A DNA stretch of 64,000 nucleotides from Haliea salexigens DSM 19537 (lineage in GTDB: Bacteria > Pseudomonadota > Gammaproteobacteria > Pseudomonadales > Halieaceae): NCBI RefSeq assembly GCF_000423125.1, contig NZ_AUHJ01000009.1:1-64000 (forward strand), read 5' to 3'. Of the stretch, positions 57,422 to 63,814 are shown piece by piece (position 1 is the stretch's first letter; each line of letters opens with the position of its first letter). The notes below the pieces were generated by a model. That model saw only the letters and a list, made by a program, of their open reading frames with translations. It was not told the origin of the DNA and ran no database searches. Made by a program: the position numbers and the translations under genes.

Positions 57422-57517
57422 GGGTCGGCTACCGCGCACCTGGGCCAAAAAGCTGAACCGGGAAAGCCCGCCCGCTGCGGTATAGTGCCTCGATTGCCAA
57501 CGCCGAGGACACCACCC

Positions 57518-59032
57518 ATGGAAGATTTCTCCCGTCGCACGTTGATCAAACAGGGCCTGCTGGCAGCCACTACCGTCGCGCTGGCTCCAACCTTGCGCGC
57601 GAGCAGCGCCACCACCCTGCCGCTGGAGGAATACCGCCAGTGGGATGCCCTGGACATCGCCGAGCGCGTGCGTGCGGGGGATGTGTCAGCGTCAGAAGTG
57701 CTGGAGACCGCCATTGCGCGGGCCCGGGCAGTGAACCCGACACTGAACTGCATCGTCGAGACACTCTACGACCGGGCGCGCGCAGCCGTTGCAAAACCCC
57801 TGCCTGCGGGCCCCTTCCACGGCGTGCCGTTCCTGCTGAAGGACCTGGGCATGATGCTGGAGGGCACCGTGACCACCCACGGCTCGCGCTTCTATCGCGA
57901 CAACGTGGCCGACTACACCAGCACGGTGGTCAGCCGCTATCAGGCCGCCGGGCTGGTGATCATGGGCAAAACCCACAGCCCCGAGTTCGGTGGCACCGGC
58001 AGCAGCGAATCCACCCTCTTCGGTGACACGCGCAACCCCTGGAACCTGGAGCACTCGGCCGGGGGATCCTCAGGTGGCTCGGCCGCAGCGGTAGCCGCCG
58101 GTATTCTGCCCATCGCCAATGCCACCGACGGCGGCGGCTCTATTCGCATTCCCGCCTCTGCCTGCGGCCTGTTCGGCATGAAACCCAGCCGCGGGCGGGT
58201 ACCCCACGGGCCGCGTACCCTGTCGTCGCTGATGTCGGTCACGCATGCCGTCTCGCGCAGCGTGCGCGATAGCGCGGCGCTGCTGGACGCCACCAGCGGC
58301 CCAGAGCCTGGCCAGACAGTCATTGCGCCACCACCCGAGGGCAGCTTTCTCGAGGCATCGATGCGCGCGCCGCGAACGCTGCGTGTTGGCCTCGTCACAA
58401 CACCGCTGACACATACCCCGGTCGCGGAGGAGTGCCTGACGGCGGCGCGCAACGCCGCCACACTCTGTACGCAACTGGGGCATAACGTGGAGGAGATTCA
58501 GCTCCCCGTCGATCCCAGGCAGTTTTTTGCCGCCTTCGGCCCGGTCATGGCAGCGAGTACTGTTGAACGCATCCACGCACGGGAACGGGCGCTGGGCCGT
58601 AAGGTAACCGAAGATGACCTCGAGCCGCTGATCTGGGAACGCTACCTTGCCGACCGCGACAACAGCGCGGAGCAGCTCTTTTCCGCCATGCAGGTGCTGG
58701 AGCAGATCACGCGCGACATGGCGCTGCTGCAGCAAACCTACGACGTTCTGCTTTCCCCTACCTTGACCACGCCTCCGGTAAAACTGGGCAAACTCAGCCT
58801 GGATCAGGACAAGGCCAGCTACGAGCAGGAGGCCATCAGCGTGTCGGCATTCACCAGCCTGTTCAACGCCACCGGGCAGCCCGCCATGTCTGTGCCGCTG
58901 CACTGGAGCGCGGAAGGTCTGCCGGTAGGCGTGATGTTTGCCGGGCGCTACGGCGAGGAGGCGCTGTTGTTCCAACTGGCCGCACAACTGGAAAAAGCGG
59001 CGCCCTGGTTCAACCGATTGCCAACAGTGTGA
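57518..59032 (+). CDS. Tat-exported amidase (amidase-signature family)
   Basis: A 504-residue amidase-signature enzyme. A Tat signal SRRTLIKQGLLAATTVALAP starts at about residue 5. The Ser-cisSer-Lys triad is visible: Lys in FLLKDLG, cis-Ser in GGSSGGSAAAVAAG and nucleophile Ser in TDGGGSIRIPAS. It should hydrolyse amides in the periplasm. I chose ATG 57518, eight bases after GAGGA, over the upstream ATG at 57485, because it places the twin arginines near the N-terminus. The substrate is unknown. Confidence 0.9.
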   Translation: MEDFSRRTLIKQGLLAATTVALAPTLRASSATTLPLEEYRQWDALDIAERVRAGDVSASEVLETAIARARAVNPTLNCIVETLYDRARAAVAKPLPAGPFHGVPFLLKDLGMMLEGTVTTHGSRFYRDNVADYTSTVVSRYQAAGLVIMGKTHSPEFGGTGSSESTLFGDTRNPWNLEHSAGGSSGGSAAAVAAGILPIANATDGGGSIRIPASACGLFGMKPSRGRVPHGPRTLSSLMSVTHAVSRSVRDSAALLDATSGPEPGQTVIAPPPEGSFLEASMRAPRTLRVGLVTTPLTHTPVAEECLTAARNAATLCTQLGHNVEEIQLPVDPRQFFAAFGPVMAASTVERIHARERALGRKVTEDDLEPLIWERYLADRDNSAEQLFSAMQVLEQITRDMALLQQTYDVLLSPTLTTPPVKLGKLSLDQDKASYEQEAISVSAFTSLFNATGQPAMSVPLHWSAEGLPVGVMFAGRYGEEALLFQLAAQLEKAAPWFNRLPTV

Positions 59033-59111: not shown

Positions 59112-60887
59112 ATGAGCAAACCGGTCCCCATCGAGCTACGCATCCCACCGCAGGACGGCGCTCCATTCACGCGTTTCGCCGCCACCCTCGCGGGCGCAGC
59201 CGGGTGGTGCGACGCGCTGCCGATGGCAGATCCGCCCGGGGTGGCGCAGCGGCTGCGCGACACGTTGCTGGAGCTGAATCGCGCGCCACTGGACCCGGAA
59301 CTTCGCTATGAATTGCTGGAAACCCTGCGGCCCAGCCTGACCCAGACCCTGACACTGCTCGACCGCGTGTTGATCAACCAGCCGCTGGCCATGCCGCCAC
59401 GTATGCAGGCATTGGCTGCGGTTTCCGACCAGATCGGCGGGTTGGCGTGCACCGCCTATTCCATCTGCGTGATGCACGCGGCCCGCGAGCCCGCGCGAAT
59501 CACCCGCAGGGCACCCGCCAGGCTGGTGTGCGAGGCGCTGGAACGCAGCCTGCACTATGCAGCACACAAGGTTCTCCTTGCACTCAACTTGCAGCTGCCC
59601 ATCGAATCGCGTACCTGGTCAACGCTGCATCAACTCTACCTGCTGGGCGAGCGCTATCGCCTGACAGACCTCGCCGTGCCCGCGGCCACCGGTGGTGAGA
59701 GCACCCTGAGGAACACCTGGCTATTGCCGCAGCTGCTGGCCTGCTGCCATACCGGCCAACTGCTGCGTAGCGACATCAACGTGCTTCACGCTGCGCTGCG
59801 GCATTCGGCACCGCGCTGCACCGTGCAGCTGGCCAGTGAACCCGGGCTGTTTGCCGTCGACCTGGGAGGCGCCAGCCCGCCGGTCTACCGCGCCAGCATG
59901 GCTACTTTGGGCAAGCAGGTGCGGGTGCTGGACACCACGGAAATGCTGAAACCGCTGACACAGGCCAGCGCAATGGCGCGCAAAGCGAACCGCAGCGGCG
60001 TGTTACTGGGCGACACCCGAATTCCCCTGCCGGTGCTGGAACATTTGCTGGATTGCCTCGGCAGCGAGCGCGAGCGCGGGAGCCGCAGGGTGATTGTGCG
60101 GGAACCGCTACAGGCCGTCTTGGGCTTCAGCGCCACGCACTTTCACCTGGCCGGCGAGCGCACCCTTGACGAGCTGGTACAGAAGCCCGGGGCCCGGAAG
60201 GCCAAACCCAGCACCGAGAACCCTTTTCTGGTAGAACGCAAAAGTGACGACCCCTGGTCCGCCGCACCCGATACCGACCGCAACCACTCTTCGCTGAACC
60301 GGGACGGCAGTATCAATGTGCTGGCTCGCGCACGCACCGAAAAAACAACCGCGCCCGAACTGCCTGCCGGATTCAGCGTTCTGCAGGTCACCACCGTGGA
60401 TGCCAGCCCAGGGGGCTATTGCCTGGACTGGGGCGCCACCGCGCCCGCAGCGGTACGCAACGGGGAACTGGTCTGTTTACGCAGGGATCAGAAAGACCCC
60501 TGGCTATTGGGTGTCGTACGCTGGACACATCGGCAGCACACCCGTGGCACGACCACCGGTATTGAAATCCTGGCTTCGCGGGCTGAGTCCTGGGCCTGCC
60601 AAACCCTGCGCGACGGGGCCAGCCAGGCCTCCTCGTTGCGGATCATTATCCTGCCACCAAACCGGCTTTCACAGGGGCGGGAGACTATCATCACGCCGCG
60701 CAGCGGCTTCGCCCCCGGCAACCACCTGCTGCTGCAGCGCGGGCAGGAGCAGCGCACCATTACCCTGGGCAAGCAGATGGCGATCAGTGCCGGGATGAAT
60801 CAGTTTGAAGTGCGAGAGGGGTTGTTGGCGGTGGAGGATACCGCCACTGCAGTGAAACAGCTGAATGATATCGACTACGCGCCCTAG
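59112..60887 (+). CDS. Large protein with C-terminal PilZ-like domain
   Basis: A 591-residue cytoplasmic protein. Residues about 1-400 are helical with no known catalytic motif (for example LLETLRPSLTQTLTLLDRVL). After a low-complexity linker, residues about 460-585 form a beta-rich domain (VTTVDASPGGYCLDWG, then GELVCLRRDQKDPWLLGVVRW) that looks like a divergent PilZ fold. It resembles a widespread but uncharacterised proteobacterial family, in some databases misnamed a chaperone. With two GGDEF-EAL proteins in the window, c-di-GMP binding is a reasonable guess, but a canonical RxxxR/DxSxxG pair is not complete. Its end overlaps the nucleotidyltransferase gene by four bases, tail to tail. 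Confidence 0.7.
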   Translation: MSKPVPIELRIPPQDGAPFTRFAATLAGAAGWCDALPMADPPGVAQRLRDTLLELNRAPLDPELRYELLETLRPSLTQTLTLLDRVLINQPLAMPPRMQALAAVSDQIGGLACTAYSICVMHAAREPARITRRAPARLVCEALERSLHYAAHKVLLALNLQLPIESRTWSTLHQLYLLGERYRLTDLAVPAATGGESTLRNTWLLPQLLACCHTGQLLRSDINVLHAALRHSAPRCTVQLASEPGLFAVDLGGASPPVYRASMATLGKQVRVLDTTEMLKPLTQASAMARKANRSGVLLGDTRIPLPVLEHLLDCLGSERERGSRRVIVREPLQAVLGFSATHFHLAGERTLDELVQKPGARKAKPSTENPFLVERKSDDPWSAAPDTDRNHSSLNRDGSINVLARARTEKTTAPELPAGFSVLQVTTVDASPGGYCLDWGATAPAAVRNGELVCLRRDQKDPWLLGVVRWTHRQHTRGTTTGIEILASRAESWACQTLRDGASQASSLRIIILPPNRLSQGRETIITPRSGFAPGNHLLLQRGQEQRTITLGKQMAISAGMNQFEVREGLLAVEDTATAVKQLNDIDYAP

Positions 60888-61942
60888 CTAGCCATCAATC
60901 CGCTCTTCTGAACCAGGTGGCGCAGTAGCAACCCCGGCGGCATGCGGATCCAGTGAGAACGTAGATACAATAACTGTTCTGCGGCTGTCACACGCCATGG
61001 CTGATCCACCTGAGGCACCAGGTGCCAGCGCATCAATGTGCTCATCAAGCGATCGACGGGGTATGCAGGCCGCGCCGCAAGCACCGTGTGCCAGACAGTA
61101 TCCGGCGGCTCAAGGCCAAAGAGATCCCCGGCGAGGGACAAACAGTAGTAAAGCGGCCGCAACAGACCCAGCGCCCTGCCATGCGCCAACAGGTCGGGCC
61201 AGAAATTCGCATCTCGCTCTGCGCCATGCAGGCAGGCCACATGAATATCGTAAAGATCGCGTATTCCACCGCGTAGTTCATCACTCATCATCAAGTGCAG
61301 CGCACTGTGCAACACCCTGTCTGTCGGAGCCAATACATAAAAAGGCGTGCCCGCAACGCGCTCCGAGCGCTCTATGACCGGCGCAACATCCAGCGCGCTG
61401 CGGCTGGTGACCTGAATCAGATTGTGATGGACATCGAGCTCCAGCGAGCAGTCGGAGTGCCGCAGGGGGGGCAGCTCATGACTCCACTGGCGGTAATACT
61501 GATTATCGTACGCCGTCAGGTTGGGGTCGAACTCCCAGCCTACATCACGCAAGCGCTGCTCGAAGTCCGGCAGCGCATGCCGGGGCACCAGCACATCAAT
61601 ATCGCTCAAGCCACGACCCGCAGCGAACGGCAGTTCCGCCATCAGATACGCCGCGCCCTTCAGGAGTATGACCGGATACTCGACCTGGGCCGCGAGCTTA
61701 CCCAGGCCGCGGAGTTCGCTGCGTACCAGCACATGCATATGTGCTACGTAGCGCGCATGCCCCGACAGCATATCGCGCACCGCAACCGGCAGGTCCAGGT
61801 CTGGTACCTCATGCGCGAGCAGATGATGGAGGCGCGCCAGCATCCGCGAGCGCCGCCCCTCGCCGAGCAGCGCCTCCCATTGCGACGGACTCAACTCGCG
61901 AGCACAGTCCGGATTGCGCAACACCGCGATCAGTGTATTCAT
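60884..61942 (-). CDS. Nucleotidyltransferase-fold protein (NTP_transf_5 type)
   Basis: A 352-residue protein with the polymerase-beta-like fold. The motif ILLKGAAYLMAELP is followed by GRGLSDIDVLVP, where the Asp-x-Asp pair would bind metal. ELDVHHNLI supplies the third acidic residue. This is the PF14907-like family often found in peptide-modification and exopolysaccharide clusters. ATG 61942 overlaps the kinase stop (ATGA), so translation is coupled. It is the last gene of a four-gene unit. Its substrate is unknown; transfer of a nucleotide to a protein or small molecule is the family-based expectation. Confidence 0.82.
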   Translation of the reverse strand: MNTLIAVLRNPDCARELSPSQWEALLGEGRRSRMLARLHHLLAHEVPDLDLPVAVRDMLSGHARYVAHMHVLVRSELRGLGKLAAQVEYPVILLKGAAYLMAELPFAAGRGLSDIDVLVPRHALPDFEQRLRDVGWEFDPNLTAYDNQYYRQWSHELPPLRHSDCSLELDVHHNLIQVTSRSALDVAPVIERSERVAGTPFYVLAPTDRVLHSALHLMMSDELRGGIRDLYDIHVACLHGAERDANFWPDLLAHGRALGLLRPLYYCLSLAGDLFGLEPPDTVWHTVLAARPAYPVDRLMSTLMRWHLVPQVDQPWRVTAAEQLLYLRSHWIRMPPGLLLRHLVQKSGLMAS

Positions 61943-62856
61943 GGTTCCCGCGCCTGCACCAGGCTTTCTACAGCGGCCACGGCTTCGGAGAGGTCGCCGT
62001 TGATCAGTTGGTAGCTCGCACACTCTCTGACGAGCCGACAGAGCGAACGGAAACCCAACGCACCACTCACGCGGTAGTTGAATGAGTTGTTGACCAGTCG
62101 CGTCATGGCCACTTCGGGAGGCTGCTCCTGCAGCTGCAACGCAGCACCGGGCTCATAGCGGGGAAAAACAATGAACCGCGGACGCGCCGGGTCTGCCTGG
62201 CGCTGCAAGCTGTCACCAGGCGGGAACATGTGTACCACATCGCCCTTGCGCGTTTTAGCATACCGCGGGCCGAAGCCGAGATGCGGGGCAAAGTCACGCA
62301 GCAGAGGTATCGAGGCATTCTTCAACGGCGCGGCACGCGGCAAGGGCAGGAAGCAGCCATCTGCATGGCGCAGAATGCCGAATTCATCGGAGAGCAGCCG
62401 CCAGCCGCGACCGACCAGAGCCGCACACAAGGTACTCTTGCCTGAGCCCGGCTGCGCCGGCAACACCACGGCGCAGCCATCGCGTTCCACCACGGCACTG
62501 TGCAGCATCAAATAATCGTGGGCCGACATGGCAATGCACCAGTTCAGGCCCCACTCGAACATCGGAAATGCATGATCCAGCGGATAGGGATCGAAAGGCG
62601 TGAGCCCTTCAATGCGAAATACCACCTGCGGACGGTACCAGCGTCGAGCGCCTAGCTGCCGCTCCACGACGATACGGAAGTGACAGACCTCATCCTCTGG
62701 GAGCACATCGAGTGATGCGTACGATCGCTGCCACGTGGCAGAAAAACTGTCCACATCACTGCCCAACCGCACTTTAAAAGGTCCTGTCTCGAAACACAGG
62801 CGCCGCTCCCGCAGCCTGCGCGACAAATCCGCCTCACCCAACGCCCCGACTTTCAA
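61939..62856 (-). CDS. HPr-kinase-related protein (HprK-related kinase A type)
   Basis: A 305-residue protein whose C-terminal half resembles HPr kinase/phosphorylase. It shows LMLHSAVVERDG, the P-loop AQPGSGKST (about residues 136-142) and WRLLSDEFGIL, which align in order with the His, P-loop and acidic motifs of HprK. The HprK signature after the P-loop is not retained, so the substrate need not be HPr. I chose TTG 62856 because it overlaps the PqqD-like stop by four bases (TTGA), as the other junctions here do; the longer frame starts inside the upstream gene. This is the core gene of the arrangement called HPr-rel-A in protein-family databases. Confidence 0.82.
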   Translation of the reverse strand: MKVGALGEADLSRRLRERRLCFETGPFKVRLGSDVDSFSATWQRSYASLDVLPEDEVCHFRIVVERQLGARRWYRPQVVFRIEGLTPFDPYPLDHAFPMFEWGLNWCIAMSAHDYLMLHSAVVERDGCAVVLPAQPGSGKSTLCAALVGRGWRLLSDEFGILRHADGCFLPLPRAAPLKNASIPLLRDFAPHLGFGPRYAKTRKGDVVHMFPPGDSLQRQADPARPRFIVFPRYEPGAALQLQEQPPEVAMTRLVNNSFNYRVSGALGFRSLCRLVRECASYQLINGDLSEAVAAVESLVQAREP

Positions 62857-63137
62857 CGTGCGAAGCGCTCGACGAGCTGCATGGAAGCCAGGCGTTCCAA
62901 TACGTTGCAGACCTGTGGCAGCCAATTCTCCCATGGTTCATCTGCGACCTTTGCCACTGCTACAGCGAGCTCCAAGTGCGTCAGACAGGCCCCCGAAGAA
63001 AGGCACGAGAGCACCTCCGCTGGCAAGGCATCAAGCAAGTGAGTCTCGCCGGTCGCATTGGAGTAAACGGCGACACAATCGCCGATCTCCTCTAGGATCA
63101 AAGTATCGTGGGAACTGAGTTGCCAGCCGTGCATCAT
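62853..63137 (-). CDS. PqqD-like small protein of the HPr-rel-A type
   Basis: A 94-residue protein with a PqqD-like pattern: a beta-rich N-terminus (LILEEIGDCVAVYSNATGETHLLD) and a helical C-terminus (NVLERLASMQLVERFA). PqqD proteins bind precursor peptides and present them to modifying enzymes. Its stop overlaps the kinase start, and it follows the Tat-exported protein gene by 34 bases. It may present that exported protein or another peptide to the kinase or nucleotidyltransferase; this is inference. Confidence 0.78.
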   Translation of the reverse strand: MMHGWQLSSHDTLILEEIGDCVAVYSNATGETHLLDALPAEVLSCLSSGACLTHLELAVAVAKVADEPWENWLPQVCNVLERLASMQLVERFAR

Positions 63138-63171
63138 GTCATGCTAACACGAGCCACGGCGGCAAAGGTGA

Positions 63172-63696
63172 TCAGTTGAAAGTGCGCAGGCTCGAGGGAT
63201 TGAGAGACGTCCAGCAGGAGCCCGTCATCGGTGTAGCGTGGAGATCATTGAACGCGGACTCAGGAATCTGCGGCCAATACCCGACAATCTCCGGGGTGCG
63301 ACCGTTGACATCAAAAAGAACCAGCACATGCCGCGTTGACTCTACGTATCCATGGCCCAAAAGTTCTTCACGATTGGTGGCGTAAACCGTTCCGCTGTTG
63401 TGGTAGTACACGCCGTTGATGTCGTACAAGTCATTCGCCAGGCCCTGCACACTACGACCCTGCTTCTTGAAGTACGGCACTTCGAGCCTCACCGCGGTAT
63501 CGCCCTGCAGGCTGTTCCCTTGACTCGCGGACTTCATATTGGAAAAACTGCCGCCGGAGCATTGTGCCGCGCTCGCCATCGCGAGTGCCGCGTTAGGGGT
63601 TAGTGACACGATTACCGGTGCCGCCGCTGACGCTTTCAACAAGCGACGCCGGGTGGCATTGACCACATGCGTTTCGTCCTTCGACTTTTTACTCAC
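63172..63696 (-). CDS. Tat-signal exported protein, possible substrate of the cluster
   Basis: A 174-residue protein starting at GTG 63696 with GAGGG seven bases before it. A Tat-like signal, NATRRRLLKASAAAPVIV, leads into SLTPNAALAMASAAQCSGG. The mature part has just two cysteines, in AAQCSGG at its start and in TGSCWTSLN near its end, so a disulfide or lipid/peptide modification is possible. The middle is Tyr/Gly/Asn-rich with no known domain (for example YDINGVYYHNSGTVYATN). It is the first gene of the unit with the PqqD-like, kinase and nucleotidyltransferase genes. Similar Cys-bracketed Tat proteins accompany such clusters in my recollection, which I cannot verify here. Confidence 0.75.
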   Translation of the reverse strand: MSKKSKDETHVVNATRRRLLKASAAAPVIVSLTPNAALAMASAAQCSGGSFSNMKSASQGNSLQGDTAVRLEVPYFKKQGRSVQGLANDLYDINGVYYHNSGTVYATNREELLGHGYVESTRHVLVLFDVNGRTPEIVGYWPQIPESAFNDLHATPMTGSCWTSLNPSSLRTFN

Positions 63697-63785
63697 TGTA
63701 TTACCCTCGTACGCGGCTCCGCGTCTCAAAACTGGTCGATCTTGTTGGCCACAAAGCAGCCACAAAGCAAAAATCAAGCCAAAAT

Positions 63786-63814
63786 ATTAACACACTGATT
63801 TATAAAGAAAACAA
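63786..63814 (-). promoter_or_regulatory. Promoter of the HPr-rel-A-like operon
   Basis: On the minus strand TTGTTT (63814-63809) and GTTAAT (63791-63786) are separated by exactly 17 bases, with TG one base before the -10 (TGTGTTAAT, extended -10). This gives a leader of about 80-85 bases before GTG 63696. The local DNA is AT-rich, as expected for a promoter. Confidence 0.45.

Follow-up and report, generated by a model that had tools for sequence, protein, structure and literature searches.

The 64,000-nucleotide stretch of Haliea salexigens DSM 19537 considered here (contig NZ_AUHJ01000009.1, positions 1 to 64,000; hereafter the window) carries four minus-strand genes, all in the same direction and within 60884..63696, which may form a Gram-negative cassette for the modification of an exported protein. 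The first of these (63172..63696, minus strand) begins with a GTG codon and encodes the putative exported precursor and substrate candidate of 174 amino acids, in which approximately residues 14-39 form a leader with twin arginines (RR) and the remainder a two-cysteine mature protein. Leader residues 15-39, TRRRLLKASAAAPVIVSLTPNAALA (63580..63654, minus strand, calculated from the gene position), include the twin arginines, Pro27 (-13), Ile29 (-11) and Val30 (-10), and end at the predicted signal-peptidase cut after Ala39, which is placed on the basis of the AxA motif and the leader profile. The codon of Ser42 (63571..63573, minus strand), the predicted mature Ser3 and candidate phospho-acceptor, is invariant in 8/8 alignment rows. 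Following a gap of 34 bases (63138..63171), the second gene (62853..63137, minus strand) encodes a PqqD-like protein of 94 amino acids, a predicted recognition element (RRE) of the kind serving ribosomally synthesised and post-translationally modified peptides (RiPPs), while the third (61939..62856, minus strand) and fourth (60884..61942, minus strand) encode, respectively, an HprK-related kinase A of 305 amino acids, read from a TTG codon, and a PF14907 nucleotidyltransferase-fold protein (NTase; 352 amino acids) with the motif GRGLSDIDVLV. The kinase frame is open as far as an ATG at 62934 (331 amino acids). The TTG at 62856, and with it an overlap with the PqqD-like gene at 62853..62856, was adopted because the kinases of most close relatives begin at the matching position, residue 27 of the window frame. 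With this start, the arrangement read in an earlier note on the same DNA (four minus-strand genes, with 34 bases between the first two and an overlap of four bases at each of the other junctions) is retained, the kinase and NTase genes sharing the other four bases (61939..61942). The next gene downstream of the unit is convergent. The note had also named a promoter candidate; a site at 63892-63863 does lie upstream of the first gene, as one of three found in a promoter scan, but this number is not clearly above the 1.2 ± 1.1 sites found in shuffled sequences.

The identities given there to the PqqD-like protein, kinase and NTase were borne out by curated models. The kinase lies above the cut-off of TIGR04352 (361 vs 200 bits) and the NTase above that of PF14907 (146 vs 31.2 bits), while the PqqD-like protein lies exactly at the cut-off of TIGR04353 (35.0 vs 35 bits), with eight scanned relatives ranging from 35.0 to 73.7 bits. 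Judged by the curated cut-offs of TIGR04352 and TIGR04353, the window cassette is a member of HPr-rel-A, of which, according to the earlier note, the PF14907 NTase is also a part. The kinase falls below the cut-offs of the HprK models PF07475 (HprK C-terminal domain; 17.2 vs 33.3 bits) and TIGR00679 (16.7 vs 240 bits).

Linkage of a leader-bearing gene to the kinase cassette

The linkage between the precursor gene and the kinase cassette is far beyond chance. As the window's own precursor family is narrow and different proteins take its place elsewhere, a collection of genomes was scanned more widely with 13 aligned kinases, which gave at least 79 loci, mostly from Gamma- and Betaproteobacteria. 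The 79 among the matches listed, together with 18 loci from relatives, constituted 97 training loci. A gene with an RR leader was found at the cassette in 91/97 of these, with the best match upstream on the same strand in 89 and downstream in two, a count weakened by the training of the leader hidden Markov model (HMM) on the same 97 loci. The PqqD-like protein was found in 92/97 and an NTase homologue in 94/97 loci, the latter lying upstream on the opposite strand in L073. Three of the six loci lacking a leader match are cut by contig ends, two hold an RR protein in place when read by eye, and L105, from a metagenome-assembled genome of the Phycisphaeraceae, has another frame, a transposase-like one of 279 amino acids, at the precursor position, with the upstream sequence present. 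Among 40 further loci outside the training set, at least one of which (L162) repeats a training contig (L066), the leader gene was upstream in 38, the PqqD-like protein was present in 40 and the NTase in 38. The two misses are L174, which runs into a contig end, and L153, where it is the mature part that the precursor profile matches. Judging by length, duplicate contigs also underlie the pairs L045/L030 and L108/L038. When the 6448 open frames of the 97 training loci were searched, three matches at E<=0.05 fell elsewhere than upstream, all of them leader genes of L085 and L086. In both of these loci leader genes are found downstream of that for the NTase, and two leader-bearing genes per cassette occur in L070, L085 and L112.

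The co-occurrence of precursor and kinase extends to whole genomes. A profile was made from 37 precursors, to which 11 of the kinase-positive relatives and, from the class sample, at least G000 and G352 contributed. At E<=1e-5 it matched 18/18 kinase-positive and 0/40 kinase-negative relatives, with two of the latter matching weakly (E 0.0074-0.0075) and no match in the same-genus genomes without the kinase, G002 and G004. The kinase was over the cut-off in 41/369 genomes of the class sample and in 0/14 control genomes. In 40 of these 41 a precursor match (E<=0.001) lay beside the kinase, the exception (G315) being at a contig end. The precursor profile was also matched in 14/328 kinase-negative genomes of the class, seven of which carry a short-peptide system described below, four the mature domain only, and three weak matches (G070, G178 and G346). 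A second leader-bearing gene, L199, lies away from the cassette in G352 (G352:C20), so that the linkage is not absolute; it may represent an unlinked substrate.

On sequence comparison, the element shared across these loci is the leader rather than the two-cysteine body. The mature parts of 129 precursors, a set in which some entries are duplicates and one, L123, probably does not belong (49 matched residues and no NTase), fell into 27 BLAST components, with 93 in a single component. The leaders share one profile, in which the commonest residues are RR, P (80/129), [LIV], [LM], [TS], L, x, S, [RK], P, [AV], [LW] and [AG]. The window's own precursor family comprises four same-genus loci and one from another genus at 42 % identity, while the same-genus G006 (L033) carries a different body behind the same kind of N-terminus in the same place, and other loci likewise read as a distinct protein behind a similar N-terminus at the precursor position. 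Thus, of the linkage that the earlier note had proposed to check, the leader gene is linked across loci, but the two-cysteine body belongs to a narrow family. The two cysteines were dropped as the substrate-defining feature, given how widely the bodies differ. No Pfam or NCBIfam family was found for the window precursor at E<=0.01, and the 37 precursors gave only isolated weak matches to these databases, with no family membership. Two matches in a PDB profile search with the 37 precursors (E 0.27 and 0.77) were taken as chance, and an AlphaFold2 model of the exported protein built from eight sequences reached a mean predicted local distance difference test score (pLDDT) of 51, with no match at E<=0.001 in a fold search. 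The mature domain of the class I precursors, those of the large component, starts with a GCTPGYWK-like stretch, contains LNA and often has GCPL at its end; it also occurs as the C-terminal part of secreted-looking proteins without an RR leader in L195, L196, L197, L198 and L200.

A profile built from the leaders of 45 other loci ranked the cassette gene first in 18/18 kinase-positive relatives (E 9e-14 to 8.6e-4), while the best match in a kinase-negative genome (E 2.1e-4) overlaps this range. The leader thus appears more specific than a general twin-arginine translocation (Tat) signal, yet is not perfectly separable from one. An amidase-like protein, named by eye, is encoded in the window at 57485..59032 (plus strand) with an RR signal of its own. 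It provided a negative control, scoring 1.4 bits (best domain 5.4) against the trained leader HMM, as opposed to 35.3 bits for the cassette precursor.

Leader register and the predicted modification enzymes

HprK-like kinases that act on peptides are known from several systems, and the earlier note's statement that it knew of no assigned biochemistry is superseded by the described peptide kinases PadeK, ThcoK, SyanK, PsmK, BsfK and LppK. The precursors of the linear polyphosphorylated peptide (LPP) system, described in a 2026 paper, have a leader consensus YxxPxVLxHQxIxFETxxS that is cut after T-1 by a signal-peptidase-like enzyme; binding by the RRE LppB depends on the YxxP part, and the HprK-like kinase LppK phosphorylates Ser3 of the precursor (PMC13381572). 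Similarly, BsfK, from a Gram-negative lasso peptide cluster, phosphorylates Ser3 of its precursor in a reaction that BsfB1 speeds up (PMC10368454). Counted from the predicted cut after Ala39, the window precursor has P-13, I-11, V-10 and S+3, in keeping with part of the LPP register; Ser42 (mature Ser3) is the predicted acceptor. Positions were compared in 89 class I and 29 other precursors, taken from the 129 after the removal of six duplicates or non-members and of five without an aligned -1 residue, with the -1 position taken from the leader profile. Ser+3 occurs in 17/29 precursors outside the large component (background 0.096, p 8e-11), a value that ignores the kinship of the rows and is further weakened by the pattern having been noticed in the data afterwards. 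Sixteen of these 17 precursors also have Pro-13.

The PqqD-like protein is predicted to have a small winged-helix RRE fold like that of the lasso peptide recognition elements. Its AlphaFold2 model (pLDDT 92) consists of four strands, three helices and one strand, and its best Foldseek match is the lasso TbiB1-leader complex (template modelling score 0.76, E 6.2e-5, rank 1), followed among others by PqqD (E 3.4e-3, rank 6) and a further complex of lasso B1 and leader (E 0.021, rank 8). The earlier note had suggested that the PqqD-like protein offers a substrate, perhaps the exported protein prior to its secretion, for phosphorylation or nucleotidylation. For such a handing of the exported protein to the kinase there is comparative support, in the form of the linkage, the predicted RRE fold and the partial register. 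As regards the kinase, H145, K166, D183 and E184 (numbering of the 331-residue frame) are invariant in the 13 aligned kinases, and SDE is found in 131/137 kinases. The His-Lys-Asp spacing of 145-166-183 is the same as that of BsfK (148-169-186), and in the PDB the kinase profile matched no sequences at E<=0.01 other than chains of HprK (E 0.0014). A single frame matching both the PqqD and kinase profiles is present at L203:2095-3261 (minus strand), in which the RRE and kinase may be fused. Genes resembling those for nucleotide-sugar epimerases, dehydrogenases and a PrsK-like histidine kinase were read by eye upstream of the precursor in L036, L038, L039 and L040; the nucleotide-sugar-like genes among them are a possible source of sugar for the NTase.

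A related system encodes much shorter products. Peptides of 57-149 amino acids with RR leaders were matched in 7/14 of the kinase-negative class genomes with precursor matches and in the kinase-positive G342, and several adjoin a PqqD-like protein, a distant HprK-like kinase and an NTase. Two of the kinases were scanned and score 49 and 85 bits against TIGR04352, under its cut-off of 200. Eleven such loci were read (L184-L194), with the kinase in seven, the PqqD-like protein in five and the NTase in three; within the stretch fetched, L187, L190, L192 and L194 contain peptide genes only, while L185 contains three peptide genes. The 15 peptides selected with the leader HMM all share RR, the motif Y-x-A-P-x-[VIL] and a GS serine that follows the Tyr at a distance of 19 or 20 residues; in the LPP consensus the distance from Tyr to Ser is 18 (PMC13381572). 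With -1 set as Tyr + 15 (Ala in 14/15), this serine is at +4 or +5. The YxxP motif within an RR leader links HPr-rel-A to LPP. An NCBIfam scan of 4/15 peptides, 2/7 kinases, 2/5 PqqD-like proteins and 1/3 NTases gave nothing above cut-off, and the short-peptide system is possibly an undescribed phospho-RiPP lineage.

Exopolysaccharide setting and the weighing of explanations

The cassette occurs together with the exosortase XrtA, which is over its cut-off in 18/18 kinase-positive relatives vs 3/40 others (p 3e-12) and, in the class sample, in 35/41 kinase-positive vs 38/328 other genomes (p 1.4e-22; Fisher tests, both ignoring kinship). In the window genome XrtA is encoded on the same contig, approximately 48 kb away (C9:110600-111376). 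Just past the window (L044, G000:C9, approximately 66.2-69.8 kb), a PEP-CTERM-like protein and a protein like the PEP-CTERM system TPR lipoprotein were recognised by eye, and several other loci have neighbours resembling PEP-CTERM and polysaccharide genes on the same basis. The clusters of the LPP system are located in capsule or polysaccharide loci (PMC13381572). A role of the cassette in the exopolysaccharide matrix is plausible.

Taken together, these results point, with a probability of about 0.57, to the cassette being a Gram-negative, Tat-coupled relative of the systems in which an RRE, an HprK-like kinase and an NTase modify lasso peptides and LPP, with the precursor as its substrate. 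It would probably phosphorylate a protein with an export signal, and perhaps also attach a sugar to it, while the protein is still inside the cell. The RR leader would have a double role, serving first for recognition by the enzymes inside the cell and then for export by the Tat pathway. The PqqD-like RRE would bind the hydrophobic stretch of the leader around Pro-13 and pass the precursor to the kinase, which would phosphorylate a serine just behind the leader; this would be Ser42 in the window genome and, in the large group that has a conserved Cys, one of the serines after that Cys. The NTase would then add a group, most likely a sugar, to the phosphate, after which the Tat system would export the modified protein and signal peptidase I remove the leader, with the product acting in the cell envelope or the XrtA-organised exopolysaccharide matrix.

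A number of observations weigh against this reading. The linked match contains stop codons in 2/40 class-sample genomes (G065 and G114). Tyr-16 of the LPP leader is replaced by Ala24 in the window precursor and Tyr is uncommon at -16 in HPr-rel-A leaders, while Pro-13 is present in just 49/89 class I and 22/29 other precursors. Ser+3 occurs in only 7/89 class I precursors, in which a Cys mostly lies at +3 to +5 and the conserved serines later. LPP leaders with V-11A or L-10A were bound with no noticeable difference (PMC13381572), so that a match at these two positions does not count as evidence for binding and the register speaks more for kinship of the leaders; likewise, substitutions of Tyr, Pro and Leu in the leader did not abolish phosphorylation in the Bsf system (PMC10368454). 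The second catalytic Asp of the lasso peptide kinases is a Glu (E184) in the window kinase. Finally, the deletion of lppN brought no detectable change in its host (PMC13381572), and the role of the NTase is therefore weakly founded.

The N-terminus of the window precursor is readable as a Tat signal, with TRRRLLK, a hydrophobic stretch and ALA, and TatC is encoded in the genome (247 bits), but the curated Tat models remain below their cut-offs (TIGR01409, 12.7 vs 16.7 bits; PF10518, 13.1 vs 22.7 bits). These scores, and the lack of a twin arginine in the LPP consensus as printed (PMC13381572), also suit the view that the RR leader does not act as a Tat signal at all, its arginines being kept for the RRE or kinase and the protein being exported by Sec, by another route or not at all. 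That view is improbable, considering that TatC is encoded and that the two twin-arginine columns of the leader hold Arg in 124/129 and 127/129 precursors, together with the hydrophobic stretch and [AG] at -1 in 122/129. The first Cys, as in secreted proteins, is present in 81/83 aligned precursors, most with a second Cys (eight of 91 rows, comprising duplicates, truncated leaders and L123, are omitted from this alignment), and class I domains also end larger proteins with Sec-like N-termini, read by eye.

The enzymes could also modify some other protein, such as an HPr-like protein or a regulator of polysaccharide export, with the exported protein as an unmodified output or sensor. HprK proper acts on HPr, and HprK chains are the only PDB relatives of the kinase within the threshold given above; the tracking of XrtA by the cassette would allow a regulatory role in exopolysaccharide production, and L105 has the kinase, PqqD-like protein and NTase, with no leader gene recognised in its 14.9 kb. 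This explanation nevertheless appears unlikely, as conservation of the leader and not of the body fits recognition of the exported protein itself, short peptides with a similar leader adjoin related kinases, the predicted fold of the PqqD-like protein is that of leader binders, and the kinase is below the PF07475 cut-off. It is rather unlikely, too, that the precursor, though indeed the substrate, owes its permanent modification to the NTase, which would nucleotidylate it or glycosylate it directly; the kinase would then have a small molecule as its target or would act only in passing. The NTase homologue PsmN is reportedly required for the hexose on the phospho-Ser of pseudomycoidin, with prior nucleotidylation left open (PMC9266682), and nucleotide-sugar-like genes are directly upstream in the four loci mentioned above; against this, the described systems need the kinase for phosphorylation and the hexose is carried on a phosphorylated Ser (PMC13381572, PMC9266682). 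Since the kinase was the search query, the present loci cannot tell whether cassettes without a kinase exist. The nucleotidylation entertained in the earlier note is thus not favoured, given the hexose that depends on PsmN and the absence of a visible effect of the lppN deletion.

If the precursor is the substrate of a Tat-coupled cassette as proposed, the twin-arginine signal would also be a leader for enzymes inside the cell. Tat chaperones are a precedent in that they read the signals of redox enzymes. Envelope proteins modified with phosphate or sugar would then be common, with the kinase over its cut-off in 41/369 sampled genomes of the class. HPr-rel-A gains a candidate substrate family, a partly registered leader, a predicted acceptor residue and XrtA as a partner system, and its function is now testable. 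A more tentative generalisation, for which the odds fall a shade short of even, is that Tat signals double as RiPP leaders across the Gamma- and Betaproteobacteria. The RRE would read the hydrophobic part, the kinase and NTase would furnish a serine at the mature protein's edge with a phospho-sugar, and a possibly folded product would pass to the XrtA matrix. This would amount to a Gram-negative equivalent of LPP biosynthesis on the scale of whole proteins, beside which the Y-x-A-P peptides of 57-149 amino acids would form a second lineage.

Comparison with known systems

No paper naming HPr-rel-A or an HprK-related kinase was found in a literature search that excluded most subscription journals and all preprints, and within the same limits none was found that joins twin-arginine, RiPP recognition element and kinase, that joins at least four among RiPP, Tat signal peptide, phosphorylation, PqqD and Gammaproteobacteria, or at least three among exosortase, HPr kinase, PqqD and PEP-CTERM. 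Twin-arginine, PqqD and RiPP came together in a single paper, a review of expression in Streptomyces, and broader searches led to papers on lasso peptides. The window cassette is itself a member of HPr-rel-A (TIGR04352, TIGR04353), to which the leader-bearing protein adds a substrate candidate. With HprK it shares the P-loop kinase core, as reflected in the profile match, but differs in its PF07475 score and in that the four-gene unit contains no HPr gene.

Among the phosphorylated lasso peptides, the systems of paeninodin type (PadeK, ThcoK and SyanK) and pseudomycoidin (PsmK and PsmN) have an RRE, an HprK-like kinase and, in some, an NTase (PMC9266682), while Bsf of Bradymonas sediminis has in common with the proposed cassette a Ser3 kinase helped by BsfB1 and a Gram-negative host (PMC10368454). 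The lasso clusters differ in having a B2 peptidase, a C cyclase and small precursors, and those of paeninodin type modify the C-terminal Ser (PMC9266682); family scans of the four window genes recovered neither a B2 peptidase nor a cyclase C. A twin-arginine leader is not mentioned in the available parts of these descriptions (PMC9266682, PMC10368454). The closest parallel is with LPP (lppAKBSDN of Paenibacillus alginolyticus), which likewise has a discrete RRE, an HprK-like kinase and an NTP transferase, precursors whose N-terminus is conserved while their C-termini vary, a location in polysaccharide loci, a core without a macrolactam cyclase and the P-13/V-11/L-10/S3 register (PMC13381572). 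In contrast to the window cassette, with its RR leader, lost Tyr-16 and precursor frames of up to approximately 300 amino acids across the loci, LPP is described as restricted to the Bacillota, employs a SipW-like peptidase and an MsbA-like transporter, and keeps Tyr-16 in a printed consensus without twin arginines (PMC13381572). Neither a SipW-like peptidase nor an MsbA-like transporter is encoded in the four-gene unit, the neighbours of which were read by eye only. It can be concluded that the enzymes belong to known families and that their logic is that of LPP and Bsf, with the cassette as a probable Gram-negative, Tat-coupled variant.

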